The translations under genes were made by a program, and so were the position numbers. A model generated the notes under the pieces. The model searched no databases, was not told where the DNA came from, and saw nothing but the letters and a program-made list of their open reading frames with translations. Source: Solirubrobacterales bacterium (GTDB lineage: Bacteria > Actinomycetota > Thermoleophilia > Solirubrobacterales > Solirubrobacteraceae). From it: 34,241 nt of DNA. The first letter of the stretch is position 1. Each line of letters begins with the position of its first letter. The DNA lies in contig DAIDJO010000092.1 in assembly GCA_027451345.1 (NCBI GenBank), positions 1 through 34,241 of the forward strand, read 5' to 3'. Below are positions 820-18,416 of this stretch, piece by piece.

Positions 820-1608
820 CTAGAGCATGACGCGCCCGCCAGCAATATCGAGCGTCACCCCGGTCAGCCACGAGGCCGAATCAGACACCAGAAACAGTGT
901 CGCCAGCGCACAGTCGACGGTTGTGCCCATGCGCCCAAGCGGCGACATTGCCGCAGTGCGGGCTATCGCGTCCTCATCCATGATCCGCGCAATCCGCTCC
1001 GACATGACAGTTGCCGGAGCGATCGAATTCACGCGAATTCCGTATTGACCCAGTTCCAGCGCTATATGCCGCGTGAACTGGATGACGCCTGCCTTGGCAG
1101 CTGCATACGGGGAGGTGAGCAACTTGTCAAGCAGCCGCCCTCCGTTGGAGGCCATCGTCACGATGATGCCGCTGCGCCGCTCGATCATCGTGCCGAGAAA
1201 CGCCTTTACCGTTAGAAACGTGGCCGTCAGATTCGCGTCCAGGACCTCGCGCCACTCGTCCTCGCCAAGGTCCAAGATCGAGGTGAAGGACGAGAAGCCT
1301 CCAGCGTATGGGAGCAGAATGTCGACCGGGCCGAGTGACGCCTCGACCTCCTCTCGCAGCGCAGCGAGATCATCGGCGCTCGTACAATCTCCCGCCACCC
1401 CGATCACCACACCACCGGCTTCGGTCAGTTCCTCAACGAATGCATCCAGCCTTGGCTTGGAGCGTGCGTTGACAGCAACCCTCACGCCATTGGCGACCAG
1501 CAGACGACAGCAGTCGGCGCCGATCCCGCTCGAACCACCGGTGACCACAGCGACTTTACCTGCAAGGTCAGGGTAGGTAGGAATCGTCCGTCCGTCGATT
1601 GGCATCAT
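820..1608 (-). CDS. SDR-family NAD(P)-dependent oxidoreductase
   Basis: A 262-residue classical short-chain dehydrogenase/reductase, a soluble enzyme that would interconvert an alcohol and a ketone using NAD(P). The dinucleotide-binding TGGSSGIG follows the first strand (about residues 23-30). The catalytic YAAAK is present, with a serine 14 residues before the tyrosine. The family's usual NNAG is PYAGG here, so the structural asparagine is replaced, which is mildly unusual. The start overlaps the stop of the upstream dehydrogenase gene as ATGATG, a sign of translational coupling; either of two adjacent ATGs is possible. It is the last gene of the catabolic run and abuts the transposase remnant. 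The substrate cannot be read from sequence. Confidence 0.85.
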   Translation of the reverse strand: MMPIDGRTIPTYPDLAGKVAVVTGGSSGIGADCCRLLVANGVRVAVNARSKPRLDAFVEELTEAGGVVIGVAGDCTSADDLAALREEVEASLGPVDILLPYAGGFSSFTSILDLGEDEWREVLDANLTATFLTVKAFLGTMIERRSGIIVTMASNGGRLLDKLLTSPYAAAKAGVIQFTRHIALELGQYGIRVNSIAPATVMSERIARIMDEDAIARTAAMSPLGRMGTTVDCALATLFLVSDSASWLTGVTLDIAGGRVML

Positions 1609-2579
1609 CGTCCACCGAAGAGCGCATCCGCGTTCACCGGGTTGCGCGGCTGCCTTCCCGCGATGACATCGACAACCGACTCCACAGCACGCAGCTGAAG
1701 TTCATCCTGCGCCTCGGCTGAGTAGAACGACATATGTGGGGTGATAACCGCCTTGGGATGGGTGCGGAGCGGATGATCGGCGGGTAGCGGCTCAATCTCG
1801 GTCACGTCGAGCCCGACGCCGCCGAGCGCGCCGCTGTTGAGTGCCTCCACAACGGCATCCAAATCGACCAATCCGCCACGCGAGGTGTTGACCAACACAG
1901 CCCCGTCGCTGGGGAGAGCCAGCTCGGTCCTGCCGATCAGGTGGTGGTTCTCAGCAGTCAGCGGGGCGTGAAGCGATACGAAATCGGCTCCCTCCAGCGC
2001 CGCCTCAACCGTGCTCGCGCGCTCGAGGCGAGGATCCCAGTCCGCAACGTAGGGGTCGTGGGCCACGACATCCATGCCAAACGCAAGCGCCCGATCAGCC
2101 ACGCCGCTTCCAATCCGGCCGATGCCGATCAGCGCCAGCCGACTAGCCTGGAGCCGTTTGATTCCCGCGCTGGGGACCTCCCAGCCGCCGTGCCGAACGT
2201 CGTTGGCCGCCGCGACCACACCCCGTGCGAGCGCGAGCAGCAGCGCGAACGTGTGATCGGCGACTTCGCCAATGCAGTAGTCGGGCACGTTTGTGACGAC
2301 AATCCCAAACCGTGTTGCTGCGTCGACGTCGATGTTGTCGTAGCCGATTCCGTACCGAGCAATCACCCGGCATCCTGCCTCAGCAGCAGACCGAATGACC
2401 TCTTCGCCAACTTTCGCATAGCAGACCAGCATCCCTGCCACATCGGCCGCAAGCGCCGTGAGCGTGGCCGGATCAGACTCCGGTGCCCTGACCAGCTCAA
2501 GACCTGCACTTGCGAGGGTACTGCGCTCGATTTCATCGCTTCCGAACGGTCGATCGGTCAACAGAACCTTGTTACTCAT
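1605..2579 (-). CDS. D-2-hydroxyacid dehydrogenase, CtBP-like
   Basis: A 324-residue NAD-dependent D-isomer-specific 2-hydroxyacid dehydrogenase, reducing a 2-oxoacid or oxidising a 2-hydroxyacid. The Rossmann motif GIGRIGSG lies mid-protein. The three catalytic residues appear in order: Arg in NTSRGG, Glu in TEIEPLP and His in TPHMSFYS. The ending HMSFYS, and the RYGIGYDNID and VPDYCIGEVADHT stretches, are typical of the branch annotated as C-terminal-binding-protein-like dehydrogenases. I chose the ATG at 2579 over an in-frame start 20 codons upstream because GGAAG precedes it at a good distance and the family N-terminus fits. It overlaps the end of a cryptic small frame (ATGA). Its likely role is redox handling of a hydroxyacid or oxoacid intermediate of the cluster. 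Confidence 0.88.
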   Translation of the reverse strand: MSNKVLLTDRPFGSDEIERSTLASAGLELVRAPESDPATLTALAADVAGMLVCYAKVGEEVIRSAAEAGCRVIARYGIGYDNIDVDAATRFGIVVTNVPDYCIGEVADHTFALLLALARGVVAAANDVRHGGWEVPSAGIKRLQASRLALIGIGRIGSGVADRALAFGMDVVAHDPYVADWDPRLERASTVEAALEGADFVSLHAPLTAENHHLIGRTELALPSDGAVLVNTSRGGLVDLDAVVEALNSGALGGVGLDVTEIEPLPADHPLRTHPKAVITPHMSFYSAEAQDELQLRAVESVVDVIAGRQPRNPVNADALFGGR

Positions 2580-2722
2580 GGCTTCCAAGCCTCTTCGCTT
2601 TCGTCGTATTTGAGTTGACCCCAGCCGCACTCTGGCCACTTGCCGAGCAGCCTCCGCTCGATCAGGAAGTACGGGTCAGTGAGAGTCCGGCCATGGAAAC
2701 CTGGATCGTCTCCATGAGCCAT
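2576..2722 (-). CDS. Cryptic small coding segment, 48 residues
   Basis: I do not recognise this product. The frame runs MAHGDDPGFHGRT, then DPYFLIERRLLGKW and ends in YDESEEAWKP, with its TGA overlapping the ATG of the 2-hydroxyacid dehydrogenase as ATGA. That junction is the same as elsewhere in this operon and supports real translation of the 3' half. No good ribosome binding site precedes the ATG. The 5' half overlaps the end of another small frame in a different phase, so the two could be one ancestral gene of about 100 residues split by a frameshift, or two coupled small genes. Confidence 0.4.
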   Translation of the reverse strand: MAHGDDPGFHGRTLTDPYFLIERRLLGKWPECGWGQLKYDESEEAWKP

Positions 2723-2864
2723 CCGCCGCGTCCAACAGCGCCGCCCGGGGCCAGATCAACGGCTCTGCAGGAATGGTCATGCCCCCGAGCTGCATGACGG
2801 CGATGCCGTCATGCAGCTCGCCACTGGTGCGCGTCAGGTCAAGCTCCGCGATCTGAGCGGACAC
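2676..2864 (-). CDS. Cryptic small coding segment, 62 residues, GTG start
   Basis: The product is unrecognised. Codons in the first 45 positions strongly prefer G or C at the third base, as in real genes of this region, and this fades after about codon 48. That is where the 48-residue frame takes over in another phase. This pattern suggests a frameshifted or misread single gene. AAGG lies 11 bases before the GTG, a weak ribosome binding site. The frame passes through a strong hairpin at 2786-2820. It lies in the 341-base space between the DRE-TIM enzyme and the 2-hydroxyacid dehydrogenase. Confidence 0.35.
   Translation of the reverse strand: MSAQIAELDLTRTSGELHDGIAVMQLGGMTIPAEPLIWPRAALLDAADGSWRRSRFPWPDSH
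2786..2820 (-). other. Perfect 16-bp hairpin in the catabolic operon
   Basis: CGAGCTGCATGACGGC and its exact reverse complement are separated by only GAT. No T-tract follows on the minus strand, so it is not a standard intrinsic terminator. It lies between the DRE-TIM gene and the 2-hydroxyacid dehydrogenase, inside the cryptic 62-residue frame. An RNA processing, stability or attenuation element is a reasonable inference, as is an operator. Confidence 0.6.
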
Positions 2865-2920
2865 GAGCTCGTCGACCTTACGAGCCTGAAGGCGTCCCGG
2901 ACTTGAGGTCGCGGCCGCTT

Positions 2921-4150
2921 TCAGCTCCGCAACTGGTCGAGCAACTCCTTGACCTCTTCGATCGAGATCAGCGTCTTCAGGTCGAGCCCGCGGCTCTTGA
3001 TCTCGGTCAGCAGCGCGCGACGCTCGTCCTCGGTGGTTTCCACGGCCAGTGCCTCGACCGCCATGTCGACGGAGGCGATGCCGCTCCCCTTTCCATACAC
3101 GACATGGGCACGCGGCTGACCGACAACGCCCCAGTGATACGGGAAGACCTCGGTCGGATACTGATCAACGCAGCGCTGCAACCAGCCGGCGATGATCCCT
3201 GACTCCACCTGGAACAGCCGGTCACCGACAACGGCCCGGTTGGTGGGCACGTTGTGACCTGCCCGCTCGCGAACTAGCCGAGACAGACCGTAGAACGCTT
3301 CCGTGTTCAGAGGTTGCTCGAGGCCGTAGAGCATCTCCAGGGCGAGCGCGAGTTCCTCCATCGGCGTGTTGCCGGCGCGTTCGCCGATCCCCGTGACCGT
3401 GGAGTGCACCACCTCGACGCCACAGCTGAGCGCGGAGATGGTGTTGGCGACCGCCAGCCCGAAGTCGTCGTGAAAATGCGCCTCGAGTGGCTTGTCCGGG
3501 AGCCGCTCGCGTACCTTCCGAACCCACTCTGGGATTGCCTGCGGGGCAACCACGCCGAAGGTATCGACCAACGCCAACGCATCCATGTGGCCGTTGGTGG
3601 CAACCTCGGCCACCAGGTCGAGATACCAATCAAGCTCGGCCCTCGACGAGTCGATCGTGAAGAAGACCGTGTACAGACCGGCTTCCTTGGCCGCGAGGGT
3701 CGCCTCGACCGAAGCTGAGATCGCGCGGTCGAGCGGCCAGCCGTATCCACGATCGATGATATGCCCTGACGAGGGAATCTCAACGACGACGCCCTTCACG
3801 CCTGCCTCAGCAGCCTTTTCCACGTCGGCGACCATGCAGCGAGCGAACGCGAAGATCTCAGCATTCAGTCCCTCTGCCACGATCCGCTCGACCGCAGCCT
3901 GGTCGGCGGGCGAAACGATCGGCATCCCAGCCTCGATCCGGTGGACGCCCGCCGCATCCAGGCGACGTGCTATCGCGAGCTTGTCCTCCTCACTGAAGGC
4001 GACACCCGCCTGCTGCTCACCGTCTCGCAGTGTGACGTCATGGAACTTCACCGTCGACGGAAACGCTAGCCCCTCGCGAGCGCTGTCCATCCAGTTCCAT
4101 GGGCTCGTGAAGAAGCGCCCATCCTTCTCCCATTTTCTCTGTTCACTCAT
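2921..4150 (-). CDS. DRE-TIM metallolyase, isopropylmalate/homocitrate synthase-like
   Basis: A 409-residue TIM-barrel enzyme of the family that includes 2-isopropylmalate synthase, homocitrate synthase and HMG-CoA lyase. These make or break C-C bonds between acyl-CoA (or pyruvate) units and an oxoacid, using a divalent metal. The signature VTLRDGEQQ sits at residues 39-47 with Arg42 and Asp43. The metal ligands His225 and His227 are in HFHDDFG, and GIGERAGNTP follows. The leucine-binding regulatory domain of true LeuA is absent; the tail resembles the short homocitrate-synthase-type C-terminus. GAGAGG precedes the ATG by seven bases. The gene follows the response regulator after 131 bases. 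In this catabolic setting it may act as a lyase or condense an intermediate with acetyl-CoA; direction and substrate are unknown. Confidence 0.85.
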   Translation of the reverse strand: MSEQRKWEKDGRFFTSPWNWMDSAREGLAFPSTVKFHDVTLRDGEQQAGVAFSEEDKLAIARRLDAAGVHRIEAGMPIVSPADQAAVERIVAEGLNAEIFAFARCMVADVEKAAEAGVKGVVVEIPSSGHIIDRGYGWPLDRAISASVEATLAAKEAGLYTVFFTIDSSRAELDWYLDLVAEVATNGHMDALALVDTFGVVAPQAIPEWVRKVRERLPDKPLEAHFHDDFGLAVANTISALSCGVEVVHSTVTGIGERAGNTPMEELALALEMLYGLEQPLNTEAFYGLSRLVRERAGHNVPTNRAVVGDRLFQVESGIIAGWLQRCVDQYPTEVFPYHWGVVGQPRAHVVYGKGSGIASVDMAVEALAVETTEDERRALLTEIKSRGLDLKTLISIEEVKELLDQLRS

Positions 4151-4281
4151 TTTTTAACCTCTCGGTTGGTTGCTGAACTTGACGGACTGGCTGCGACACG
4201 CCTGTATGCGACCGCTCGTGGTGGTGTCACCCAACGATTCAAGTTATGGCTGCTCTGTCAGTCGCCAGAGATTTGGTCCGG

Positions 4282-5124
4282 TCACGTGACCGATACCTCG
4301 GCAGCACCCGGCCGGGCAACTCCGGGCGCGCCCGGTGGACTCCTGGTCGTGCGCAGCGCGGGGACGCGCAACTGAGCAGCTGAGACGCTTTGGACGCGGG
4401 GCACGACCCCCGACGCGGAGCGATAGAGCTTTCGCGGGCGGCCGGGGCCTCGTGGCGGTGCAGCAACGGTGGCCTCGCCGATGGACACCAGGTACTCGAG
4501 GTATCGCCGTGCCGTCCCGCGCGCGAGCCCGGCGGCATTGGCAACGTCAATAGCTGACTGAGGCGTCCCGCCGCGCGCCAACGTCCTCCTCACGAGCTCC
4601 ACACCCTCGCTCGAGAGCCCTTTGGGAAGCCAATCTGGGTCCACCCGCCCGCTGGCGCAAGCAACGTCTATGGCTGCTTGGTCCAGCAGGTCGGCCTGTA
4701 GTGCGTCGGCGCGGTTCACGAACAGCGCCAGTGCTCTGCGCAGCCGCTCGACCGTGAACGGCTTGACGAGATAGTCGACGACGCCATACCTGATCACCTC
4801 ACTGACAATCGTGCGGTTGCGGGTTGCCGTCAGTGCAATCACGTCGATTTCGCCTCCGCTGGCGCGAATATTTCGGAGCAACCTCAGTCCGCTCATTCCG
4901 GGCAGCCTCAGATCGAGCAGCAGCAGGTCGCAGCCGCGATGCTGAACGAACGCGAGGGCGTCCTCGCCACGCGACACTGTGCCGGCGACGGCCATTCGGG
5001 GGGTGGTGAGAATCGTTCTCCCGTAGACGGAGGCGATCTCCGGGTCATGCTCGGCTATCAGGACCCGCCAGAGCCCACCTTCATCGCACCTGCGGCCGGT
5101 CTTCCCAAAGGCACGATCACGCAT
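4282..5124 (-). CDS. CitB/DcuR-type response regulator
   Basis: A 280-residue two-component response regulator. The receiver domain begins near residue 19 and carries acidic residues at 25-27, phospho-acceptor Asp71 in LLLLDLRLPGMSG and a conserved Lys in YLVKPF. The C-terminal part (SAIDVANAAGLARGTARRYL and GPGRPRKLYR) is the winged-helix DNA-binding domain of the CitB/DcuR family, whose known members respond to carboxylates such as citrate and C4-dicarboxylates. A start 32 codons further upstream is open, but the ATG at 5124 fits better: it overlaps the CoA-transferase stop by eight bases and leaves a normal receiver. No sensor kinase gene is in the window. Being inside the catabolic operon, it probably regulates that operon in response to a carboxylate. 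Confidence 0.88.
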   Translation of the reverse strand: MRDRAFGKTGRRCDEGGLWRVLIAEHDPEIASVYGRTILTTPRMAVAGTVSRGEDALAFVQHRGCDLLLLDLRLPGMSGLRLLRNIRASGGEIDVIALTATRNRTIVSEVIRYGVVDYLVKPFTVERLRRALALFVNRADALQADLLDQAAIDVACASGRVDPDWLPKGLSSEGVELVRRTLARGGTPQSAIDVANAAGLARGTARRYLEYLVSIGEATVAAPPRGPGRPRKLYRSASGVVPRVQSVSAAQLRVPALRTTRSPPGAPGVARPGAAEVSVT

Positions 5125-6334
5125 GCCCGTGCCCCAGGACTCCCGCCCGTCTGAGGTGCGCGATCCGGCTCGGGTCGTACCCGCAAAGCTCACCGAGCAC
5201 CTCATCCGTGTGCTCTCCAAGTTCTGGGGCAGGAAGCGGCGGCGAGGCCAGGGGCTCCTGCAACCGAAGCGCGCTGGCCACGTGCCCGACCTCGCCGAGT
5301 CGCGGATGTGAGGTGCGCTGGATCACCTGGCGTGCGGCGACCTGTGGATCCGCGAACGCCTGCTCGACGGTGTTGATCGGCGCGCACGGGACACCAGCCG
5401 CGTTGAGACGCTCGATCCAGACAGCGACTGGCTGCGTACCCAGGCGTGCCTCGATCAGGTGGTTGAGCTCCGCCCGATGCTCCAATCGCTGGGCAAAATC
5501 AAGGAAGCGGGGATCCCGCCCGAGCTCGGACATGTCGATGGCACCAACGAAGGCGAACCACAAGTTCTGTTTGGGCGCGGCGACGACAAGCCATCCATCA
5601 GCCGCTGGGTAGACCTGAAACGGGGTGATGGATGGATGCGCGGAGCGGGTCTGCCGAACCGGCTTGTCCCCGCGTGACAGGAACCAGGTGGCCATATAGT
5701 TGAGCTGGGCGAGTGCCACCTCGTATAGGGCGAGGTCGCAGTCGCATCCCTGACCCGTGGTGCGGGCCTGCAAGACCCCGGCGAGGATCGCGGCCGCAGC
5801 TGCGTAGCCGGCGGAGAAGTCCGCCAGCGATACCCCCGAGCGCAGCGGCGGGTTGTCTGGCTCTCCCGTCAGGCTCATCCAGCCGCTGAGCGCTTGTACG
5901 ACGTGGTCATAGGCCCCCTCGCCCGCGCGGGGGCCGCTCATCCCGAAGCCTGAAAGGCAGCAGCAGACGATCCGCGAGTTCACATGGGCTAGGTCGCGGT
6001 AGCGGAGCCTGAGGCGAACAAAGCTGCTGCCACGGAGATTCCCGAATACGCAGTCAGACTCACGAACCAGGTCCTCGAGTACAGGCCTCGCGCCGGCGAG
6101 CCGCAGATCGAGCGTGATCGAGCGCTTGCCACGGTTGAACGCCTCGAAGAACAGTGACGTGTCATCACTCTGGTGTGGTGGCACGTACCGACCGACGTCG
6201 CCTTTGGAGCGCGGATCTTCAACCTTGATGACATCCGCACCGAGGTCCGCCAGCTGCATCGTGGCCCACGGTCCAGCCCCGAACTGCTCAACTGCCAGCA
6301 CACGCAGACCATGCAGCGGCCGGGAGTCACTCAC
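5117..6334 (-). CDS. CoA-transferase, family III (CaiB/BaiF)
   Basis: A 405-residue class III CoA-transferase, moving CoA between a donor thioester and a carboxylic acid through an aspartyl-anhydride intermediate. Family hallmarks are LRVLAVEQFGAGPWATMQLA near the start, LGADVIKVEDP, the catalytic Asp in AYDHVVQALSG, and LPAPELGEHTDEVL near the end. I selected the GTG start at 6334 because GAGGGGG lies nine bases upstream and it overlaps the preceding stop by eight bases. A longer frame from 6373 would read through coding sequence of the upstream gene. The response regulator overlaps its 3' end in the same manner. It would activate an acid intermediate before C-C cleavage or beta-oxidation-like steps; the acid is not identifiable. 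Confidence 0.9.
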   Translation of the reverse strand: MSDSRPLHGLRVLAVEQFGAGPWATMQLADLGADVIKVEDPRSKGDVGRYVPPHQSDDTSLFFEAFNRGKRSITLDLRLAGARPVLEDLVRESDCVFGNLRGSSFVRLRLRYRDLAHVNSRIVCCCLSGFGMSGPRAGEGAYDHVVQALSGWMSLTGEPDNPPLRSGVSLADFSAGYAAAAAILAGVLQARTTGQGCDCDLALYEVALAQLNYMATWFLSRGDKPVRQTRSAHPSITPFQVYPAADGWLVVAAPKQNLWFAFVGAIDMSELGRDPRFLDFAQRLEHRAELNHLIEARLGTQPVAVWIERLNAAGVPCAPINTVEQAFADPQVAARQVIQRTSHPRLGEVGHVASALRLQEPLASPPLPAPELGEHTDEVLGELCGYDPSRIAHLRRAGVLGHGHA

Positions 6335-7286
6335 CTTCGTCAGCCCCCTCCGCAGTGGTAAGGTGAAAGCCACCGGCGAGGGTCTTCAGGACCTCGTAGA
6401 CAGATGCTGTGTCGAGTTCCGCAAGACCCGAGGCCATCGCCGCCAGGTGCAACTCCGAACTCGCCGCGAACAGTGGCGTTGGCACCGAGTGCTCTGCTGC
6501 GAACTCGCGGATCAAGCCAAGGTCCTTCTGAAACACCCGGTGACTGACCCCTGATTCGTAGCGTCCCGCGAGCATGCTGGGACCTCGCACCTCGAGCATC
6601 CGTGAACTTCCTGCGCTGTCGCAGAGCACCCTGAGCGCCAACTCCTGATCGAGGCCGGCGGCCTTCGCCAGAACGAGCGCCTCCGATGCGGCGACGTTAT
6701 GAATCGCGACGAGTAGATTCGCGACGAACTTCATGCGGGTGCCGGCACCGAACCCCCCCAGATAGTGGTGGGCCCTGGCAAAGCCTTCGAACACAGGAGC
6801 ACACCGGCGGACGGCCGCTTCATCGCCGCTGGCGAGGACAACGAGATCACGGTGCAGCGCCTGATGCCCGGTGCCACTCAGGGGGCAGTCGATCAGGACC
6901 GCACCCGCAGGAGCCACAGCTGCCCTCGCTCGCTGCTTCGCAGCCACCGACAACGTGCTCGCCTCGATGACAACCTGGCCGGATCGGGCCCGCTCGGCCA
7001 GATGATGCAGGACATCCGCCAAGGCACGCTCGGAGGGCAGCGACGTGATCACGATCTCGGCCTGCGCAACGTCGCCGGGTGTATCAGCCCCGGCGCCGCC
7101 GCTCATCTCGAGTTCACGGACACGTTCACCATCAAGGTCGAAGCCGATAACCGCGAACCCAGCATCCACGAGATTCCTCGCGATCGGCCCGCCCATCCGA
7201 CCGAGCCCGACAACTCCGACGGTCAGCTGCGACCGAGGAGCTTCGGGACCGCGCTCGGCGCTCGTGGCGCCTTCGAGGCCGCTCAT
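6327..7286 (-). CDS. NAD(P)-dependent beta-hydroxyacid dehydrogenase (3-hydroxyisobutyrate dehydrogenase family)
   Basis: A 319-residue member of the beta-hydroxyacid dehydrogenase family, which oxidises 3-hydroxyacids to semialdehydes or oxoacids (3-hydroxyisobutyrate, tartronate, 6-phosphogluconate relatives). The Rossmann motif GLGRMGGPIARNL lies near residues 27-39. DCPLSGTG is the substrate-binding stretch, and GFGAGTRMKFVANL carries the catalytic lysine with the conserved Asn. A short polar N-terminal extension precedes the fold. The ATG overlaps the stop of the upstream SDR as ATGA, and the CoA-transferase follows with an eight-base overlap. These three genes therefore form a tight translational unit, consistent with successive oxidation and CoA activation of one intermediate. 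Confidence 0.9.
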   Translation of the reverse strand: MSGLEGATSAERGPEAPRSQLTVGVVGLGRMGGPIARNLVDAGFAVIGFDLDGERVRELEMSGGAGADTPGDVAQAEIVITSLPSERALADVLHHLAERARSGQVVIEASTLSVAAKQRARAAVAPAGAVLIDCPLSGTGHQALHRDLVVLASGDEAAVRRCAPVFEGFARAHHYLGGFGAGTRMKFVANLLVAIHNVAASEALVLAKAAGLDQELALRVLCDSAGSSRMLEVRGPSMLAGRYESGVSHRVFQKDLGLIREFAAEHSVPTPLFAASSELHLAAMASGLAELDTASVYEVLKTLAGGFHLTTAEGADEGE

Positions 7287-8041
7287 TGTGCGGTGTAGCC
7301 ACCGTCGACGAGTAGTGCGTGACCGGTCACGAACGACGCGTCGTCGCTGGCAAGGAAGAGCGCGGCCTTTGCCTGGTCCTCAGGTGTACCGAGACGCCCC
7401 AACGGGTGGCGATCCAGGAGCCACTGTTCCGCAGCCTTTGCGTCCCCGGAGGACGCGAGCCAGTCGCGAAGGAACTCGGTGTCGGTGCCGCCTGGACACA
7501 GCGCGTTCACCCTGATCCCATCACCGGCGAGCTCGAGCGCCAAAGACTTCGAGAAGTTGACCGCCGCAGCCTTGGTCAGCGCGTACCCGGCTGAACCGGC
7601 GGCGCCAACCATGGCAAACGTGGAGCCAAAGTTGATGATGCAGCCCCGCGTCTTTCGGAGTTCCGGGATGGCGTGCTTGCACACCAGGAACATGCTGCGA
7701 ACGTTCGTCGCCATCAGATTGTCCCAGGTCTCCACATCCATGGACTCGACCGTAGAGGCAGGGGCGATCCCGGCGCAGTTGACGACGATGTCGATCTTCC
7801 CGTACGTGGCAACGGTGTTGCGCACCAGGCCCTCGACGCTTTCCTCATCTCGGACGTCTGCGGCGAAGAAATGGGCCGGGTAGCCCTCATCGATCAGGCT
7901 CTGCTCCATCTGCTCGCCAAGCACGGCTCTGCGCGCAGCGAACACGACGCTGGCGCCCTCCTTCGCGAAGAGACGAACGATCGCCTCGCCGATTCCCCGG
8001 TTACCTCCGGTTACCAGGGCTACTTTCCCTTCCAGACGCAT
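7283..8041 (-). CDS. SDR-family NAD(P)-dependent oxidoreductase
   Basis: A 252-residue classical SDR. TGGNRGIG binds the cofactor near the N-terminus and NCAG is intact. The catalytic Ser (in NFGSTFAM), Tyr and Lys (YALTK) are all present, and the tail FVTGHALLVDGGYTAQ is that of FabG-like enzymes. The acidic end of strand 2 is not obvious (FAARR), which leans towards NADP, but this is weak evidence. AGGAG lies six bases before the chosen ATG; a GTG one codon earlier is also open. It starts ten bases after the second permease gene, linking transport and enzyme genes in one transcript. The substrate is probably an alcohol or hydroxyacid generated from the imported compound. Confidence 0.9.
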   Translation of the reverse strand: MRLEGKVALVTGGNRGIGEAIVRLFAKEGASVVFAARRAVLGEQMEQSLIDEGYPAHFFAADVRDEESVEGLVRNTVATYGKIDIVVNCAGIAPASTVESMDVETWDNLMATNVRSMFLVCKHAIPELRKTRGCIINFGSTFAMVGAAGSAGYALTKAAAVNFSKSLALELAGDGIRVNALCPGGTDTEFLRDWLASSGDAKAAEQWLLDRHPLGRLGTPEDQAKAALFLASDDASFVTGHALLVDGGYTAQ

Positions 8042-8050
8042 CACTTTCTC

Positions 8051-9082
8051 CTAACTTTCATCGGTCGCCTGCTGGCGGGGCTGCGTCGCCCTTCGCAACC
8101 CCATGACGGTGCCACGACGAGCCCGCTGCACTCGCCACCAGCGCAGCACGTCCGGGGCGTCAACGATGGTGACAATCAGTAACAGCACCGCCGGCAGGAG
8201 CGAGTTCACGTAGTTCGCCGAATGCAGCACCGGGATCGCCTCCGTCACGATCCCCAGCGATAATGCACCGGCAGCAATTGAAATCGGGTTTCCCCTTCCA
8301 CCGGAAAGGGGCACGCCGCCCAAGAGCGCGGCTGTAGTTGCAAAGATCAATGGACTGACCGTTTGCGTCGGGGCCGCGTACTGCAGGCTGTAGCCCTGCA
8401 GAGCACCGGACAGTGTGCAGAGAACTGCCGACGTTGCGAAGACCGCGGTGACGATCAGCGGAATCCTGAGTCCCACGACACGGGCGCTCTTGCGATCACT
8501 GCCGATTGCTCTCAGGTTACGGCCAAGCGCCGTGGCCATGAGGATCAGGGCAACCAGCACGAATACGCCAATCGCGACGAAGACCTGCACCGAGAACACG
8601 CTGGCGATCGGGTTGGTCAGCGCCGTGCTGACACCCTGATTGGGATAGGAGAGCGTCTGGTTGTTGCTGATCACGTAGACGAGTCCGAGGACGGTGATGA
8701 AGCCACCCAGTGTGACCGCTATCGAGTTGATGCCGAGCCTGGAGACCACCAGTCCCTGGATCAGACCAATCACAAGGCCGGCGCCCATCGCCACCAGAAC
8801 GCCAACCAGAGGTGAACCGACGCCTGTCTTCACAGCCAGGATCGATCCAAGCAGGTAAGTGGAGGAGACCGACAGGTCGAACTCACCGGCGATCATGCTG
8901 AGACCTAGCGCGAGCGTCACGAGGCCAAGCGTCGCCAGCGTGTTGAGAATGTCACTGACGTTGACGGTCCCGACTCTGGCAGCGCTGTCGAACACCGGGA
9001 GCAGCGCGAACAGGATCGCAAGGATAACGAGCAGCGCAAACGGCCGCAAAGCGTCGCGCCGGTAACGCAGGATGGCGCTCAT
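8051..9082 (-). CDS. ABC transporter permease, ribose/monosaccharide type
   Basis: A 343-residue hydrophobic protein of the BPD_transp_2 (RbsC-like) family with about eight to ten membrane helices. The family core appears in SMIAGEFDLSVSSTYLLGSI and in the late stretch GGVPLSGGRG. The ATG at 9082 is preceded by GGAGG eight bases upstream and overlaps the stop of the other permease as ATGA; the longer open frame upstream lies within that permease gene. Two non-identical permeases side by side suggest a heterodimeric channel. RbsC-type systems carry sugars but also nucleosides, autoinducer-2, polyols and other small molecules, so the family name does not fix the substrate. Confidence 0.92.
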   Translation of the reverse strand: MSAILRYRRDALRPFALLVILAILFALLPVFDSAARVGTVNVSDILNTLATLGLVTLALGLSMIAGEFDLSVSSTYLLGSILAVKTGVGSPLVGVLVAMGAGLVIGLIQGLVVSRLGINSIAVTLGGFITVLGLVYVISNNQTLSYPNQGVSTALTNPIASVFSVQVFVAIGVFVLVALILMATALGRNLRAIGSDRKSARVVGLRIPLIVTAVFATSAVLCTLSGALQGYSLQYAAPTQTVSPLIFATTAALLGGVPLSGGRGNPISIAAGALSLGIVTEAIPVLHSANYVNSLLPAVLLLIVTIVDAPDVLRWWRVQRARRGTVMGLRRATQPRQQATDES

Positions 9083-11709: not shown

Positions 11710-11731
11710 GCCGGATGTGTTCAGGACTCGT

Positions 11732-12823
11732 CTACTTCGTCGGCCACGCCGAGCACAGAGACTTGAACTGCTTGTAGTTCGCGAGCGTGAAGCGCTGCTC
11801 GCGCACGATCACCGTGTGCGGCTGCTTCTGGCCGTTCAGGAACGAGGCGATGTGCTCCGCCGCAGTCGAAGACTCCTGGATCGGCGACTGCGTCGCATCA
11901 CCCCACAGCTTGCCGGCCTGCATCTGGGCAAAGCCGATCGGAGTGCAGTTGCTGGCCGTGACGACCAGATCCCCATGCGCGACACCGGTTGGGATCCCAA
12001 GCTGCTGAGCAGCCTGGATGATGCCGGCAGCTTGGTAGTCCGCCATGCCGTAAGCGCCCTGGATACCGCCCTTGGACCGATACTGGGTCAGCACCTGGAG
12101 CGCCAACTGGCTCGACTTCACCTGGTCCCAGTTGCCGTCCTGCACGGACACGATCTTGTACTGCGGGTACTTCTTCATGTACGCGTTGAAGGCGTTGATG
12201 CGCTGCTGAACGATCTGCGTGCCCATCGTTCCGGTGATCATCATCACGTTGCCCTTACGGTAACCGGCCTTCCGCATCCCCTGAACGATGTTCTGAGCGG
12301 CAGAGAGGCCGAGTACTGGGTTGTCAGCGACGACCTCGAAGGCGATCTTCTTCTCTCCCGCAGGAGCAACCGGAGCGTTCACGTTGATGACCGGGATGCC
12401 GGCTGCCTTGGCTCTCGCGATGGCGGGAACGATCGCCGTAGCACTTGAGGCGAAGACAACGATGGCGCTCGGCTTCTGCGCGATCGCCTGGTCCATGTGC
12501 TGGTTCTGCAGAGCCGGGTCAAAGTTGTCAGACAACTGCGTCACGCCGACTCCGGCTGCCTTGAGCAGCTTCGTCAGATGGATGTTGTAGGCGTGGCAGA
12601 AGACGTTCGGCTCGCATGTCACCAAAACGATCTTCTTGTGACCCTTGACCTTCGGGACCGCCGTCTTCGTGACCGCTGGGCTTGTGACCGTCTGGCTGCC
12701 ATTGGTCGCGGCTTGCACTGGCGGGACCGCCTGGGTCACGACCATGGCCACGGCGAGCGCCGCGACCGCCGCGAGAATGCCAAATCCCCCGGGCTTCGTA
12801 TAGAGCTTGATAAGGCGAATCAT
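11732..12823 (-). CDS. ABC transporter substrate-binding protein, ribose type (exported)
   Basis: A 363-residue periplasmic-binding-protein fold type I protein. Residues 1-38 form a signal peptide: basic start, hydrophobic stretch about 14-33, and VQA-A as a likely signal peptidase I site. No lipobox cysteine is seen. The mature part has the two-lobe features of RbsB-like receptors, with SAIVVFASSATAIVPAIARA, GIPVINVNAPV and MMITGTMGTQIVQQRINAF. A Pro/Val/Lys-rich linker precedes the fold. GGAGAGG lies eight bases before the ATG. It is first in the transport operon, with a predicted promoter about 75-100 bases upstream. The ligand is unknown; as the neighbours are hydrolases and a deaminase-like enzyme, an amide- or nitrogen-containing molecule is as likely as a sugar. 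Confidence 0.92.
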   Translation of the reverse strand: MIRLIKLYTKPGGFGILAAVAALAVAMVVTQAVPPVQAATNGSQTVTSPAVTKTAVPKVKGHKKIVLVTCEPNVFCHAYNIHLTKLLKAAGVGVTQLSDNFDPALQNQHMDQAIAQKPSAIVVFASSATAIVPAIARAKAAGIPVINVNAPVAPAGEKKIAFEVVADNPVLGLSAAQNIVQGMRKAGYRKGNVMMITGTMGTQIVQQRINAFNAYMKKYPQYKIVSVQDGNWDQVKSSQLALQVLTQYRSKGGIQGAYGMADYQAAGIIQAAQQLGIPTGVAHGDLVVTASNCTPIGFAQMQAGKLWGDATQSPIQESSTAAEHIASFLNGQKQPHTVIVREQRFTLANYKQFKSLCSAWPTK

Positions 12824-12926: not shown

Positions 12927-13058
12927 GCCATCGCGTCGTTTAGTATTTGTCGCTTAAGGTCTCGCTGTTCATAGGCTCCACACGACCAGCTTGCGCGCAG
13001 CGACAACTGCGCCGCTCGAGCGTCGAAGCCCGACGCATGCAGTTGCCGTGAGCGCGCG

Positions 13059-14249
13059 TCAGTCGTCGAGGAACAGGCCCCTGGGGGCATTGGTGAGCAC
13101 CTCGCACCCCGTATCGGTGACAACGACCACATCCTCGATCCGGGTTCCCGCCACACCTGGCTTCAACAGGCAGGGCTCAATCGTGAAGACCTCCCCGACT
13201 CGCAGCTCATAATCGTCGTAGTAGTAGTCCGGCACATCGTGGATATCCAGGCCGACCCCATGCCCGACGAGCTCAATCTTGTACTCCCCGAGACCGGCGT
13301 CATCAGCAACAGCCTTGGCGACCGCGTTCAGGTGAGCCGGCGTCACGCCCGGCTTGACGGTTTTAGTCACCTCGGCGTTCATCAGCACCGTGGTCGCGTG
13401 CAGGTGACGGAGTTCCTCTGACAGGTCCGACGGATCACCGGCGAGCCGCATCCTCGCGATGTCTCCGGCGTACCCGTCGAACTTGGGCAGCACATCAAAG
13501 AGAACCCATTCACCGCGCTCGATCTTCTTCCTGCGAGTCGGCAAGGAACTGCCTGAGGCACTGTTCACTCCGGCGCTGATGATGCAACCACCTGCCGTCT
13601 CCAGATCGCCCAGGCGTCGAAGCTCCTCCTCCGCGACCAGCCCCACCTCATACTCATTTGCACCGGGCTCAACCGCCTTCATGCCGGCGATGGCGGCCGC
13701 GTCGGCGATCTTCTCCGCTCGGCGATGCCGCTCCAGCTCGGCGGGGCTCTTGACCGCCCGCACGCGAGAGATGGCAAGTGTGGGCACCAGTTCGACATCT
13801 TGTGCGGCGGCCGTCAAGGCGAGGTAGTCCCGAGCCGGGAAGATGTACCAATTGTCGATCCCCACGCGTCGGAGACCGTGTTTGGCAATCAGTCGCCCAA
13901 GATCGGCTCCCATCTGCGTTGAGGCGCGAGTGTCTGCGTACTTCGACATCTCCTGGGCACGCACCACATCCCACAGTGCATCCGTCAGCAGCACCGGTTC
14001 ACCGTCAACAGGCACGAGTGCCGCAGCAGCACCAAAGATGTAGTAGCCGTGCTCACGCGTGTGCTGATGACCGACGAACCTCGTGTAGTAGGACGTCAGG
14101 TACCGGATGTTCGCCGTCAACTTCGCGTTTGAGTAGGCGATGATCGCGTCCAGTCCCTCCGCGCTGGCAGCCGCCCGAACGGCTTCGGTGCGGGTGCGGT
14201 ATTCGGCATCTGCGATCGGCTCGATGGGCCACAGGTCACTTGCGCGCAT
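13059..14249 (-). CDS. M24-family (creatinase/prolidase-type) metallohydrolase
   Basis: A 396-residue two-domain protein: an N-terminal creatinase-like domain (about 1-165) and a C-terminal pita-bread domain. All five metal ligands are visible: Asp252, Asp263, His330 (GHGVGLDIHD), Glu358 (IEPC) and Glu372 (RIED), with second-shell His337. The M24 family includes Xaa-Pro aminopeptidase, prolidase, creatinase and ectoine hydrolase, all cleaving C-N bonds, so a C-N hydrolase function is likely but the substrate is open. The ATG at 14249 is supported by GGAGA seven bases upstream; an open extension of 19 codons lacks such a site. It follows a second M24 gene after 99 bases. The pair may act as a heteromer or on successive substrates. 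Confidence 0.88.
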   Translation of the reverse strand: MRASDLWPIEPIADAEYRTRTEAVRAAASAEGLDAIIAYSNAKLTANIRYLTSYYTRFVGHQHTREHGYYIFGAAAALVPVDGEPVLLTDALWDVVRAQEMSKYADTRASTQMGADLGRLIAKHGLRRVGIDNWYIFPARDYLALTAAAQDVELVPTLAISRVRAVKSPAELERHRRAEKIADAAAIAGMKAVEPGANEYEVGLVAEEELRRLGDLETAGGCIISAGVNSASGSSLPTRRKKIERGEWVLFDVLPKFDGYAGDIARMRLAGDPSDLSEELRHLHATTVLMNAEVTKTVKPGVTPAHLNAVAKAVADDAGLGEYKIELVGHGVGLDIHDVPDYYYDDYELRVGEVFTIEPCLLKPGVAGTRIEDVVVVTDTGCEVLTNAPRGLFLDD

Positions 14250-14290
14250 AACGCTGTCTCCAATTGGTGTTCGTAACGGGCTCCGCCTGC

Positions 14291-14328
14291 CCGCCCGCGA
14301 CGCCACACAGGGCTGGCCTCGCGGGCGG
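14291..14328 (-). other. Long intercistronic hairpin between the two M24 genes
   Basis: A ten-base arm CCGCCCGCGA pairs with TCGCGGGCGG, then after one C/C mismatch GCCA pairs with TGGC, closing an eight-base loop. The structure fills much of the 99-base gap and has no T-tract. Partial termination or message processing between the two hydrolase genes is inferred. Confidence 0.6.
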
Positions 14329-14348
14329 CTTCATGAGCGGCTATCGGC

Positions 14349-15647
14349 TCAGATCAAGGCCTCGTCATAGAAGGGATGCTTGGTGAACAGAACAGGTCCA
14401 TCCTTCGTGACAAGGAGGTTCTCCTCCAGGCGGACCGTCTGCTCCAGACCCGGATGGCCGGCAAAGGTCTCACATGCGAAGTACATGTTCTCCTCGAGCA
14501 CAACCGGGTAGTCAAGCGAGTAAGCGCGCGAGATCCACATTCCCTCATACAGAGACAACCCGATGGAATGTGCGAACTGTTGCAGCGTCACAGTTCCATA
14601 TTCATCGTCGGCGTACTTCGGGAGCTTGGATGCAACGTCGGCTGTGGTGTTGCCGGCCTTCATCATCTCGATCGCGGCGTACATGGTCTCGTAGCATTCC
14701 TTGTAGAGATCCTTCTCCTTAGGACTCAGCGGCGCGTCCACCTTGAAGCAGCGGACGAAGTCCACGAAGTACCCACCCGGACCGACCGCGTTCTGGTCAA
14801 CGATCACCAGATCTCCCTGGCGAATCACCTTGTCCGTGTGCCAGCGCCGATACGGGCTGGTATTTCCTCCGGAGGCAACGATGATGTCGTAGACGAAGTC
14901 GAAACCATTCTCGTACAGGTACTCATTGACCTTTGCAGTGATCGTTGACTCACGCACTCCCGGCTTGAGCCACTCATTCTCGATCTTCCAGAACGATGTG
15001 TCTCCGAATGCGCTTGAGATCTTCAGACACTCGAGTTCATCAGGTGTCTTGATGACGCGGGCGCCCGACATCACGGGCCACGCGCTGACCGTCTTGAGGC
15101 CCGCCCGCTCGAACGCGGCCATCGCCGACGGATCGGCGATGTCCAGGCCGATACGCTCACCCTCAACGCCATTGGACTTGAGGACATCGATGATCGACTG
15201 GACCATCTTGTCCGCCATCATCTCCTCGGCGCTCTCCGCCCACTTCCATGTGATCGCCGGCCGGATGTTCCCGTTCAGCCAGGGGGCATCGATCTTCGCG
15301 CACTCGAGGTCGGAGCCGGCTGTCTCGAACAGGACCGGCTCTCCACCGCGCGGCAGGACGCAGTAGCGGATGAAGATGTTGTTCTTCCAGTTGCCCTGGA
15401 ATACCCCGGTGATGTAACGGACGTTCTCGCCCACGAAGCACACTACGGCACCGAGATCATGTTCTTCCATCTTCATGCGAGCCCGTGCCAGCCGGTCACG
15501 GCGCATGCGATCGAAGTCGACGCGGCCCTGCCAGTCCGTGGCAGTTGTGCTGTAGACCCGCCTGGGGTCATGCTCATGCGGCTTTCCGAGGAAGGAGAGG
15601 TCCATGCCCTTGCCAACCGGAGTCAGCTCGTGATCATTGGTGGTCAT
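14349..15647 (-). CDS. M24-family metallohydrolase, DddP-like branch
   Basis: A 432-residue pita-bread-fold protein. The five metal ligands of M24 enzymes are in place: Asp284, Asp296, His360, Glu393 and Glu408. From memory of DddP, the M24-type DMSP lyase of roseobacters, several stretches line up: the DFDRMRRDRLARARM start of the N-domain, NVRYITG, and the ending LEENLLVTKDGPVLFTKHPF. However, the residue six positions after the metal histidine, the catalytic Asp in DddP, is Leu366 here, and the aspartate two residues after the first metal Asp is Asn286. DMSP lyase activity is therefore unlikely, and a C-N hydrolase of unknown substrate is the safer call. It sits between the deaminase-like gene and the other M24 gene on one strand. 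Confidence 0.82.
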   Translation of the reverse strand: MTTNDHELTPVGKGMDLSFLGKPHEHDPRRVYSTTATDWQGRVDFDRMRRDRLARARMKMEEHDLGAVVCFVGENVRYITGVFQGNWKNNIFIRYCVLPRGGEPVLFETAGSDLECAKIDAPWLNGNIRPAITWKWAESAEEMMADKMVQSIIDVLKSNGVEGERIGLDIADPSAMAAFERAGLKTVSAWPVMSGARVIKTPDELECLKISSAFGDTSFWKIENEWLKPGVRESTITAKVNEYLYENGFDFVYDIIVASGGNTSPYRRWHTDKVIRQGDLVIVDQNAVGPGGYFVDFVRCFKVDAPLSPKEKDLYKECYETMYAAIEMMKAGNTTADVASKLPKYADDEYGTVTLQQFAHSIGLSLYEGMWISRAYSLDYPVVLEENMYFACETFAGHPGLEQTVRLEENLLVTKDGPVLFTKHPFYDEALI

Positions 15648-15704
15648 TCTGGGTAATCGCCCTTCGGGTCGTGGCTGTTGTCTATTGCTGCTCGCACCCG
15701 AGCC

Positions 15705-17480
15705 CTAGTGGCCTTCGCTGACGATCAGCGGCAGCCACTGGCGGCTCTGGACATCGAACGGGCCGAGATGGCCGAGTTTCAGGAACGGCAACTCGCCGCA
15801 CACAGCCGTGAACGCGAGGTTGTGGAACGGTGAGTCCATCGTGCATCCGAGTTCCCGCACGAACTCGTACAGACGCTCCATCGCCGGGATGAACTCGGCA
15901 GCGGGGCGATCTGACATCAGTCCACACAGCTCTAGAGGCACCGCGACCACGCGGTCACCGTTTACCGCGACGAACCCGCCGCCCATCTGCGCGAGAGCGT
16001 TGGCCGCGGTCGCCATGTCCTCATCGTTGACTCCCGCAACGAGCACGTTGTGATACATCGGGTCGTAGGTGGTGCCGATCGCCCCGCCGGCCAGACCGTA
16101 ACCCTGCAAAAAGCCGATTCCTGCAGGGTCATCGCGTCCGTAACGGTCGAGCATCGCAAGCTTGATCACATCCTGGGAGGTGTCGGCGACCACGCCGCCG
16201 TCAACCACAGGCAGGGTCACATGCCGCTCCGGCGATACGAGGTTCTCACCGCCGATCACGCGGACGACCACGCTGTGGCTGCTGGCTGGGACGCGGAACG
16301 ACGCAGCGGTTGCCGGGCGCGCGAGACGCACGCTGTTCTTGAGGAATGCGGGGTACAGCGGCTGGGAGCTGCGAGCGACGTACTCGCGGTTTCGAACCAC
16401 CACCTCGCCCTTCGCGACGACCGACTCCACTTGGAAGCTCTCCAGGTCCGGAACCATGACGATGTCCGCCTGCCGCCCCGGCGCGAGGCTGCCGATCGCA
16501 TGGTCGACCCTGTAGTAGCGCGCGGCATTGATGGTCGCCATCTGGACTGCCGCGATCGGATCCACGCCGCCCTGGATGGCCAGGCGTACGTTCTGATCAA
16601 TGTGGCCAATGTTGGCGGCCTCTACCGGGTCGAGCACGTCCGCGCAGAAGACAAAGTTGTGAGTGCTGGCGCCGAACTCAGTGATCGCGCGCTGCAGTTC
16701 GCGTTGGTTGCGAGCAACGCACGACTCGCGCATGGAGACGACCATCCCGGCGCTGACCCGTGCAAGCGCCTCCTCCGGTGTCACCGCCTCGTGGTCGCAG
16801 GTGACACCGGCCGCCGCATAGCACAGCAGATCCGGCCCCGTGAGCCCGGCCCCGTGCCCCATGACGACCCTTCCGCTCGCCAGCGTCCGCTCAATGAGGT
16901 CGCGAATCACCGGATCCTTTTCGACTATCGGAATCAGCGGCGGCTCCTCCATCCCGACACAGCCGTCCCAGCCAAGCGTCTCCCTGAGGTCAGCGCCGTC
17001 GAGGCTGTTTGGTCCGCTTGCGATGCCAAGCTCGAGGTTCTGCAGGTAACCGAGCGCCGGAACCTGGTTCAGCACGGTGATCGGGGTGCGGCGCAACTCG
17101 TCCGTGAAGAAGCGCACCGCCTCGAGCCCGGCGATCTGACCCGCTCCGTACATCGCCTCGGGAAGGGCAGTCGTGCCATGGGCAAGCACGAGGCGGGCAA
17201 ACTCCGTGGGATTCAGGTTGGACTCGTAGACGTGCAGGTGAGTCTCGATCAGTCCAGGCGTCAGGTAGAAACCGCTGGCGTCGATGACCTCTGTGTCCGG
17301 GCCGATGAACGCGTCAACCTCACCGGCGGCGACGATCGTGCCGCCGACGACCGCTACCCCACCGTCGACGATCCTGCCGCTCCATACATCGACGATCCGC
17401 CCCCGGACGACCGCAAGATCTGCCTTCCGGGCGCCCAGAAGGACCTCGAGCGCGTCAATGCGCTCCGCATAAGCTCGCAT
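15705..17480 (-). CDS. Adenine-deaminase-like amidohydrolase (Ade family)
   Basis: A 591-residue metal-dependent hydrolase with the two-domain layout and length of adenine deaminase. Metal-site candidates are His81 and His83 (ETHLHVYES), Glu178/Glu179, His209 (GHGAGL), His230 (CDHEA) and Asp281. The Ade-specific C-terminal domain is present, with YHNVLVAGVNDEDM near residue 495. The first motif is HLHVYES, whereas typical adenine deaminases have HLHIESS, so the metal or substrate pocket is altered and adenine may not be the substrate. GGGAG precedes the ATG by about nine bases. It is first in a unit with the two M24 genes, downstream of a predicted promoter that lies inside a large dyad and divergent from the XRE-cupin regulator. 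Confidence 0.82.
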   Translation of the reverse strand: MRAYAERIDALEVLLGARKADLAVVRGRIVDVWSGRIVDGGVAVVGGTIVAAGEVDAFIGPDTEVIDASGFYLTPGLIETHLHVYESNLNPTEFARLVLAHGTTALPEAMYGAGQIAGLEAVRFFTDELRRTPITVLNQVPALGYLQNLELGIASGPNSLDGADLRETLGWDGCVGMEEPPLIPIVEKDPVIRDLIERTLASGRVVMGHGAGLTGPDLLCYAAAGVTCDHEAVTPEEALARVSAGMVVSMRESCVARNQRELQRAITEFGASTHNFVFCADVLDPVEAANIGHIDQNVRLAIQGGVDPIAAVQMATINAARYYRVDHAIGSLAPGRQADIVMVPDLESFQVESVVAKGEVVVRNREYVARSSQPLYPAFLKNSVRLARPATAASFRVPASSHSVVVRVIGGENLVSPERHVTLPVVDGGVVADTSQDVIKLAMLDRYGRDDPAGIGFLQGYGLAGGAIGTTYDPMYHNVLVAGVNDEDMATAANALAQMGGGFVAVNGDRVVAVPLELCGLMSDRPAAEFIPAMERLYEFVRELGCTMDSPFHNLAFTAVCGELPFLKLGHLGPFDVQSRQWLPLIVSEGH

Positions 17481-17536
17481 CCTCAGTCTCTCCCATCAAG
17501 AGCGCAGTGGCGCTCGGTCTCCACGTCGCGATCACA

Positions 17537-17572
17537 CTACGAATCGCGTTAGCGACTCTAACGAATCCGTAG
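17537..17572. promoter_or_regulatory. Nested dyad operator candidate
   Basis: Two inverted repeats share almost the same centre. The inner arms are CGTTAG and CTAACG around CGACT; the outer arms are CTACG and CGTAG. AATC follows each left arm or precedes each right arm. The 36-base element lies in the intergenic space between the deaminase-like gene and the XRE-cupin gene and covers the -10 region of the predicted minus-strand promoter. It is the natural binding-site candidate for the adjacent regulator. Confidence 0.6.
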
Positions 17573-17584
17573 CCTCACTGTCAA
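17555..17584 (-). promoter_or_regulatory. Predicted promoter for the deaminase-like/M24 unit
   Basis: Minus strand: a perfect TTGACA (17584-17579), 18 bases, then TAGAGT (17560-17555; four of six consensus positions). Transcription would begin near 17548, about 68 bases before the ATG. The -10 element lies in the centre of the nested dyad, so a protein bound there would block RNA polymerase. Confidence 0.5.
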
Positions 17585-17648
17585 ATCAGGAGAGAGCCAT
17601 CACGCTCATTTCACGATCTCCGACCAAGCTGATAGCTTTTTGACTTCT

Positions 17649-18416
17649 ATGAGCGGTACTGTCCGTCCTGACATCGACGCGGCCACGGCGGCCATCGGGG
17701 AACGCTTGGCAGAGATGCGGTCTGCCCGTCGGATGAAGGTCTCCGAGCTCGCGCGGCAAGCGGGGGTCTCATCGAGTCTGATCAGCCAGATCGAACGCGG
17801 GACGTCCAAACCCTCAGTCGGAAGCCTGTTCGCGCTGGCGCAGGTGCTCGGTGTCCCCGTCGACAGCTTCTTTGACGATGGTGGGGGTCCAACAGCCGCC
17901 CAGGCAGATGCCGTGCCCGCCGGCCACCAGTCAGATGCCAAGCGAGCGGCTGACAGCGGGATCCTGGAGATGATCCGCGATGTCCAAAGCGGCCGCTATC
18001 GGCACTGGAATCACGGCATCACGACAGAGCGGGAGGTCGTCCGCTACCAGTCGCGAGCGGGGATCGACATCCGGGGTGGCGTGCGGTGGGAGCGCTTGAC
18101 CTCGACCCCACTCGACGGTCTGGAGTTCTTGGAACTGATCTACGCACCCGGAGCCGAATCCGATAGCCAGGCCTACCGCCACCCAGGAGTCGAACTGGTG
18201 CTCGTAACCCAGGGCATGATGACGATCTTCCTGGGCTTCGAACAACACGATCTGCGCCCCGGAGACTCGATCTCGTTCGCGTCATCGACGCCGCACCGGT
18301 ACGTCAACCTCACCGACGGAGAAACACGAGCGGTGACCGTGATCCTCAGGGATAGCCTCTCCACGCTGCCGATCCGTGAGGATCCGGGCACCGAACCGGC
18401 AGACGCCCGGGGTTAG
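17649..18416 (+). CDS. XRE-family regulator with C-terminal cupin
   Basis: A 255-residue transcription factor. An XRE helix-turn-helix occupies about residues 18-75 (SELARQAGVSSSLISQIERG is the recognition core). A cupin ligand-binding domain occupies about 165-240 (HPGVELVLVTQGMMTIFLG, LRPGDSISFASSTPHRY). Such regulators, PuuR- and SutR-like, usually sense a small catabolic substrate and repress adjacent genes. I take the ATG at 17649; a TTG three codons earlier is open. No ribosome binding site is visible and a weak -10-like TAGCTT lies close by, so the message may be leaderless. It is divergent from the deaminase-like gene, with a large dyad between them, so local and autogenous control is the simplest reading. 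Confidence 0.9.
   Translation: MSGTVRPDIDAATAAIGERLAEMRSARRMKVSELARQAGVSSSLISQIERGTSKPSVGSLFALAQVLGVPVDSFFDDGGGPTAAQADAVPAGHQSDAKRAADSGILEMIRDVQSGRYRHWNHGITTEREVVRYQSRAGIDIRGGVRWERLTSTPLDGLEFLELIYAPGAESDSQAYRHPGVELVLVTQGMMTIFLGFEQHDLRPGDSISFASSTPHRYVNLTDGETRAVTVILRDSLSTLPIREDPGTEPADARG

Follow-up and report, generated by a model that had tools for sequence, protein, structure and literature searches.

The gene cluster

The window analysed here is one entire contig (G000:C92; DAIDJO010000092.1 of assembly GCA_027451345.1) of 34,241 nucleotides from a Solirubrobacterales bacterium, whose genome of 3.3 Mb is 85% complete and spread over 133 contigs. Our subject is a cluster of 15 genes at positions 820 to 18416 (Table 1), for which an earlier note, made from the letters alone, had counted about seventeen and proposed a catabolic pathway. 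The genes are mostly co-directional, as the note had it: 14, from the Ade-like amidohydrolase gene down to the SDR2 gene, lie on the minus strand, and a single one, encoding a helix-turn-helix (HTH)-cupin regulator, is divergent and on the plus strand. The repeated overlaps of 4–8 bases were also found, five in number: 4 bases for SDR2/2-hydroxyacid dehydrogenase (2HADH), 8 for response regulator/coenzyme A (CoA)-transferase, 8 for CoA-transferase/HIBADH, 4 for HIBADH/SDR1 and 4 for permease 2/permease 1. Because of these overlaps, which were computed with likely starts chosen by position and by a Shine–Dalgarno-like sequence where present, most of the cluster looks like a single operon or a small number of operons.

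The families named in the note were all recovered: a ribose-type importer, an Ade-family amidohydrolase, two M24 enzymes (M24a and M24b), two SDRs, two other dehydrogenases, a CoA-transferase, a DRE-TIM protein and two regulators. The parts of the importer (a Peripla_BP_4 protein, a double ABC ATPase and two BPD_transp_2 permeases) all score above the Pfam cut-offs, and the CoA-transferase matches PF02515 across its full length (381 bits, cut-off 23.3), with no NCBIfam equivalog to call its substrate (best score 281.6 bits, cut-off 750). M24b scores best on a prolidase model, under the cut-off of that model. No kinase partner for the response regulator was found among the annotated window genes; a 54% relative of this regulator adjoins a GAF/SPOB-type histidine kinase in L083, a locus that also carries DRE-TIM and SDR2 relatives.

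Table 1. Genes of the cluster at positions 820–18416 of the window
Gene product	Position	Likely start	Strand	Basis or remark
SDR2 dehydrogenase	820..1608		-	adjoins 2HADH also in L033, L036, L039, L059
D-2-hydroxyacid dehydrogenase (2HADH)	1605..2639	2579	-	family profile
DRE-TIM protein, unnamed IPMS/HCS-like subfamily, predicted C–C lyase	2921..4150		-	HMGL-like
DcuR/DpiA-like response regulator	4282..5220	5124	-	family profile
Class III CoA-transferase	5117..6373	6334	-	PF02515
HIBADH/L-threonate-dehydrogenase-type dehydrogenase	6327..7286		-	NAD_binding_2/11
SDR1 dehydrogenase	7283..8044		-	family profile
Importer permease 2	8051..9235	9082	-	BPD_transp_2
Importer permease 1	9079..10071		-	BPD_transp_2
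Importer ATPase, ribose/arabinose type	10082..11650		-	ABC_tran, two stretches
Ribose-type periplasmic binding protein	11732..12823		-	Peripla_BP_4
M24b, second M24 enzyme, prolidase-like	13059..14306	14249	-	Peptidase_M24
M24a, M24-fold metalloenzyme of unnamed family, module core	14349..15647		-	five M24 metal ligands kept
Ade-like amidohydrolase, probable C–N/ring hydrolase	15705..17480		-	Amidohydro_1 + Adenine_deam_C
HTH-cupin regulator, PuuR-like (below PuuR model cut-off), candidate cluster regulator	17640..18416		+	divergent

Outside the cluster, at 22184–23173 on the plus strand, the window encodes a protein with a type VI secretion system Hcp-like domain (PF05638, E 9.5e-12; the NCBIfam Hcp1 match is below cut-off). 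Such a domain would not be expected in an actinobacterium.

Recurrence of the cluster in other genomes

A scan of named genomes with M24a gave 27 loci at 68–93% identity, all from metagenome bins, and a further relative (61% identity) was found on a plasmid of Haloarcula sp. JP-L23, a strain that also carries 2HADH. The record titles of the 27 loci read Actinomycetota, Bacillota, Nitrospinota, Tectomicrobia, Armatimonadetes or Acetobacteraceae, three giving only 'bacterium'; two of the loci, L056 and L059, come from the same bin and hold opposite ends of the M24a gene. Relatives of the other proteins were counted in these 28 loci (the 27 and the plasmid) by tblastn, with cut-offs of at least 38% identity and at least 35% coverage. 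DRE-TIM was present in 17 of the 28, 2HADH in 12, and either or both in 23. SDR2 followed with five loci, the Ade-like protein with four (five with a cut-off gene in L040) and SDR1 with three, and HTH-cupin, M24b and every importer gene were each found in two. Since a number of the loci span only 3.2 to 7.5 kb, all these counts are lower bounds. Nine control proteins, of which eight, including pyruvate carboxylase, are encoded elsewhere in the window and one is the next IPMS-like protein of the same genome, were found in none of the 28. Since the core recurs in other genomes and the nine controls do not, the recurrence is more than chance and is not the accident of one contig. The note had called for a search for conserved co-occurrence and would have considered its proposal refuted had the set been conserved in no other genome; the catabolic-type set does recur elsewhere, and the proposal withstands this check.

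Two loci, L033 and L036, have ten genes in common with the cluster: those for the Ade-like protein, SDR1, SDR2, the binding protein, the ATPase, both permeases, M24a, M24b and 2HADH. The relatives there are 72% (L033) and 53% (L036) identical for M24b, 45% and 60% for the binding protein, and 61–65% for SDR1; Ade-like relatives at 40–69% occur in L033, L035, L036, L040 (cut off) and L042, and HTH-cupin relatives in L035 (56%) and L036 (47%). The order of the genes differs among the window, L033 and L036, and that the ten stay together despite this change therefore points to a kept function. The core of the module consists of M24a, DRE-TIM and 2HADH, together with an amidohydrolase and dehydrogenases. 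The importer, the Ade-like protein and M24b belong to an actinobacterial version, which the window shares with L033 and L036.

The CoA-transferase, the HIBADH-type dehydrogenase, the response regulator and pyruvate carboxylase had no relative in any of the 28 loci at the above cut-offs; under them, weaker matches were seen for HIBADH (30% in L036, 26% in L060) and for the CoA-transferase (27% in L054). The first three look like local additions, and pyruvate carboxylase, which the note had described as adjacent, is a neighbour and not a linked part. With neither the CoA-transferase nor HIBADH in the 28 loci at these cut-offs, the activation by CoA that the note had included among the steps has weak support and is at best a local addition. 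One could go further and consider the whole cluster a mosaic, in which an unrelated sugar importer, amidohydrolase/peptidase scavenging and a CoA-transferase branch lie side by side by chance. The three non-conserved genes, the changes in gene order and the different importers of different loci would agree with this, but the joint recurrence of ten genes in L033 and L036 and the absence of all nine controls do not, and we hold the mosaic to be quite improbable.

The association also appears at the level of genomes. Among 396 sampled Actinomycetota genomes, the DRE-TIM family (E 1e-120) is present in 10 and M24a (at least 72%, at least 400 residues) in five, the own genome included. In both searches at most four candidates were scored per genome, so that copies can be missed; a 72% M24a piece of G032, at a contig edge and adjoining DRE-TIM, escaped the genome search and was recovered from the fetched DRE-TIM locus. 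With the own genome excluded and G032 counted, five genomes have M24a, nine have DRE-TIM and three have both (P = 8e-5, uncorrected for kinship). Another 12-genome test was made by way of M24a loci, nine picked as having a locus without DRE-TIM and three with it: the DRE-TIM family was found in seven of the 12, that is in four of the nine and in all three. In the genome of L042, for instance, a DRE-TIM copy lies with a third Ade-like gene in L099, on a contig equal in length to that of L042 and apparently about 22 kb further on. Note that L042 itself has two tandem Ade-like genes adjoining M24a (3331–6920).

In three further Actinomycetota genomes (G049, G084, G106), a distant M24 protein (33–34% identity) accompanies the same DRE-TIM (54–55%) and 2HADH (49–50%). 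These M24 proteins form a clade separate from M24a in a tree built by a quick method and carrying long-branch warnings, so that the pairing of M24 with DRE-TIM and 2HADH holds for two M24 clades. The tree has 44 rows. Its M24a-type entries are the window, the plasmid and 18 of the scanned loci; the other nine of the 27, being near-copies, short or partial, were omitted, as were two distant M24 loci. DRE-TIM, a distant M24 and 2HADH lie together in the Actinomycetota locus L074 (890–6160) and in L075 and L076; between them in L074 is an open reading frame (ORF) of 589 aa with a pyruvate-phosphate-dikinase-type ATP-binding domain, and ORFs of like size are found in L075 and L076. Among plasmids, no match to the DRE-TIM protein was found at 1e-60, and a search with the Ade-like protein gave 89 records, all below 60% identity; in the one region inspected, from Sinorhizobium pSymA, an adenine deaminase gene adjoins an NCS2 permease and the cluster module is not there.

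Catalytic residues and the proposed pathway

By profile and by fold (model with a predicted local distance difference test score, pLDDT, of 85), the DRE-TIM protein is nearest to homocitrate synthase (HCS) and isopropylmalate synthase (IPMS), yet all 25 NCBIfam families shown are under their cut-offs (best score 288 bits, cut-off 484.75). We compared it with methylthioalkylmalate synthase (MAMS), whose catalytic residues are described in PMC11532901. In all 17 DRE-TIM members of the residue table, from which Nitrospinota near-copies, cut-off members and the split gene of L082 were omitted, R42, D43, Q46, T197, H225 and H227 are kept, and correspond to R89, D90, Q93, T257, H288 and H290 of MAMS. 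By contrast, I166 stands in the place of MAMS Glu227 and I320 in that of His388; at each of these two sites, 15 members have Ile and two have Val. The Tyr399 site, in a less certain part of the alignment, holds Tyr in no member. According to PMC11532901, activity was undetectable in the E227A and E227D variants of BjMAMS2A and in all five H388 mutants except H388N. The protein of the own genome that is 26–27% identical to DRE-TIM (L002) keeps the His. In L082, the DRE-TIM gene (6143–7347) is in two frames, through a frameshift or an assembly error, and lies near two FAA-hydrolase-like matches.

We infer from these residues that the DRE-TIM protein has probably lost the canonical acetyl-CoA condensation, and since it lacks the acetyl-CoA general base of MAMS and IPMS, it is more likely a C–C lyase cleaving a 2-oxoacid-type substrate than a synthase. 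Of the 'cleavage or condensation' that had been considered for it, cleavage would thus be retained and condensation appears unlikely. The protein might nevertheless still be a synthase that joins a 2-oxoacid and an acyl-CoA into a 2-alkylmalate-like acid by means of some other base, the cluster then being partly biosynthetic or anaplerotic. This would agree with its best profile and fold matches, with the retention of the Gln (Q93 of MAMS) that is close to the CoA thiol in that enzyme, and with the CoA-transferase of the window's cluster. However, the replacement of both E227 and H388 in 17 of 17 members, the missing Tyr, the inactivity of the corresponding BjMAMS2A mutants and the want of a CoA-transferase relative at 38% or more in the 28 loci make a synthase unlikely.

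The other core enzyme, M24a, keeps the M24 metal ligands D284, D296, H360, E393 and E408, which are invariant in a 17-row alignment. Its model, of modest quality (pLDDT 67), has four DddP entries as best fold matches, followed by prolidases, ectoine hydrolase and creatinase. Of the six metal ligands of DddP, D295, D307, H371, E406 and E421 are kept and D297 is replaced by Asn; the bases proposed for DddP in PMC4108388, Tyr366 and Asp377, correspond to L355 and L366, both invariant in the 17 rows. Because both bases are Leu and Asp297 is Asn, M24a was not classed as a DddP, and it scores 84 bits on the DddP model NF043017 (cut-off 600).

The neighbours of M24a elsewhere were surveyed by Pfam scans of 50 neighbour ORFs, a fraction of the total, and in an annotated record that includes an M24a gene. 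The ORF clusterings behind this choice picked shadow ORFs, the DNA being GC-rich, and served only to select neighbours; the counts given above rest on tblastn. Among the families found were Zn-alcohol dehydrogenases, GntR-FCD regulators, Amidohydro_2 proteins, HisD-like and XDH-type oxidases, GFO/IDH/MocA, AFOR and FAA hydrolase. Some of the loci thus carry aldehyde-oxidising genes, of AFOR type in L042 and of XDH type in L055 and L060. In the Bacillota locus L055 (5900–7995), PEP_hydrolase-like and UPF0261 genes adjoin M24a and the XDH-type oxidase gene.

The survey bears on a different scheme, an oxidative pathway for sugar acids or polyol acids. Here M24a would be a DddP-like beta-eliminating lyase in place of a sugar-acid dehydratase and the amidohydrolases would be lactonases. 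The fold matches and five shared ligands of M24a would suit it, as would the Zn-alcohol dehydrogenases, GFO/IDH/MocA, HisD-like and Amidohydro_2 proteins among the neighbours, and no family of the aldonate-dehydratase type was present among the 50 ORFs scanned. Set against this are the invariant leucines at both proposed bases and the Asn at Asp297, together with the modest model and the partial coverage of the neighbours. We therefore rate this scheme, too, as improbable.

FAA hydrolase-like genes are present in L033, L035 and L036, three loci from genomes in which no DRE-TIM match turned up, and are absent from all 17 M24a loci that have DRE-TIM. This distribution would fit FAA hydrolase and DRE-TIM being alternative carbon–carbon cleaving exits.

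The cluster is thus a real, conserved catabolic module, which is unassigned and, like its DRE-TIM subfamily, undescribed as far as the searches made can tell. The note had matched the gene set to no named pathway, and our literature searches on the set or its enzymes, which left subscription literature mostly uncovered and included some over-specific queries, gave no match either. The reading that we favour, tentatively and short of even confidence, is a sequence of import, C–N hydrolysis, oxidation and retro-aldol-type cleavage. The ribose-type importer would take up a small sugar- or polyol-like molecule with a C–N bond (amide or ring), from which hydrolysis by the M24 enzymes and the Ade-like amidohydrolase would yield a hydroxyacid. 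The SDRs and 2HADH would turn this acid into a 2-oxoacid, which DRE-TIM, working in the retro-aldol direction, would split into an aldehyde and either pyruvate or a 2-oxoacid similar to it. The FAA-type hydrolase may be another exit in the three actinobacterial genomes without DRE-TIM, and the CoA-transferase and HIBADH-type dehydrogenase could form a local extension handling the second fragment.

Several observations weigh against this sequence of steps. Ade-like proteins occur in only five of the 28 loci, and the importers vary among loci (ribose-type, BPD_transp_1 ABC, TctA/TctC, MFS), so that the substrate may vary too. Five M24a genomes (L033, L035–L038) gave no DRE-TIM match anywhere; conversely, of the 11 DRE-TIM copies in Actinomycetota, five (G100, G135, G183 and two in G305) lack an M24 within the fetched stretch, M24a in G100 sitting on a different contig. 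The mutual exclusion of FAA hydrolase and DRE-TIM is weak (P about 0.05, with related genomes): both are present in L082, the FAA proteins of L035 and L036 are just 44% identical to that of L033, and two FAAH relatives (41–43%) lie on other contigs of the own genome. The absence of the Claisen base does not tell what took its place, and another residue could act as base. Finally, each of the 27 named records comes from a metagenome bin, and some short contigs may carry an incorrect phylum label.

A wider proposal, which we regard as possible but somewhat doubtful, is that a new pathway, shared by six bacterial phyla and a haloarchaeal plasmid, degrades a widespread natural compound, M24a being a new small-molecule hydrolase or lyase and DRE-TIM a new C–C lyase derived from the IPMS scaffold by loss of the acetyl-CoA base. 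If so, lineages known here from metagenome bins only (Solirubrobacterales-type Actinomycetota, Nitrospinota, Tectomicrobia) would share a catabolic module that hints at a compound these organisms encounter, and two enzyme subfamilies would likely be misnamed by automatic annotation, as 2-isopropylmalate synthase and as Xaa-Pro peptidase.

Comparison with known systems

Several known pathways were considered and dropped: the ectoine pathway, since both M24 proteins score under the ectoine hydrolase cut-offs; the creatine and pantothenate pathways, with no partner genes among those annotated (no creatinase or pantothenate model was run); the nicotinate/enamidase pathway, with which agreement is confined to the HIBADH-like and amidohydrolase parts; and the lumichrome/riboflavin pathway, whose genes, as named in PMC12746152, differ.

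Adenine salvage was dropped as well. The Ade-like protein shares the two-domain architecture of adenine deaminase (Ade, 3nqb), with Adenine_deam_C. Unlike the enzyme, however, it falls under the equivalog cut-off (TIGR01178, 349 bits against 472.5), and the second Asp of the C-T-D-D stretch is Val.

Ectoine hydrolase (DoeA/EutD) and creatinase cut C–N bonds in small molecules. Both are fold matches of the M24a model, but they are only 18–20% identical to M24a, and the ectoine hydrolase models give 28–49 bits (cut-offs 575–613). The dimethylsulfoniopropionate lyase DddP has the M24 fold and five metal ligands in common with M24a, and differs in the two leucines and the asparagine described above. 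Lastly, whereas the general-base pair of IPMS, HCS and MAMS is Ile/Val in the DRE-TIM protein and Tyr399 has no counterpart there, the fold, the RDGEQ motif and the metal and 2-oxoacid residues are shared with these synthases.

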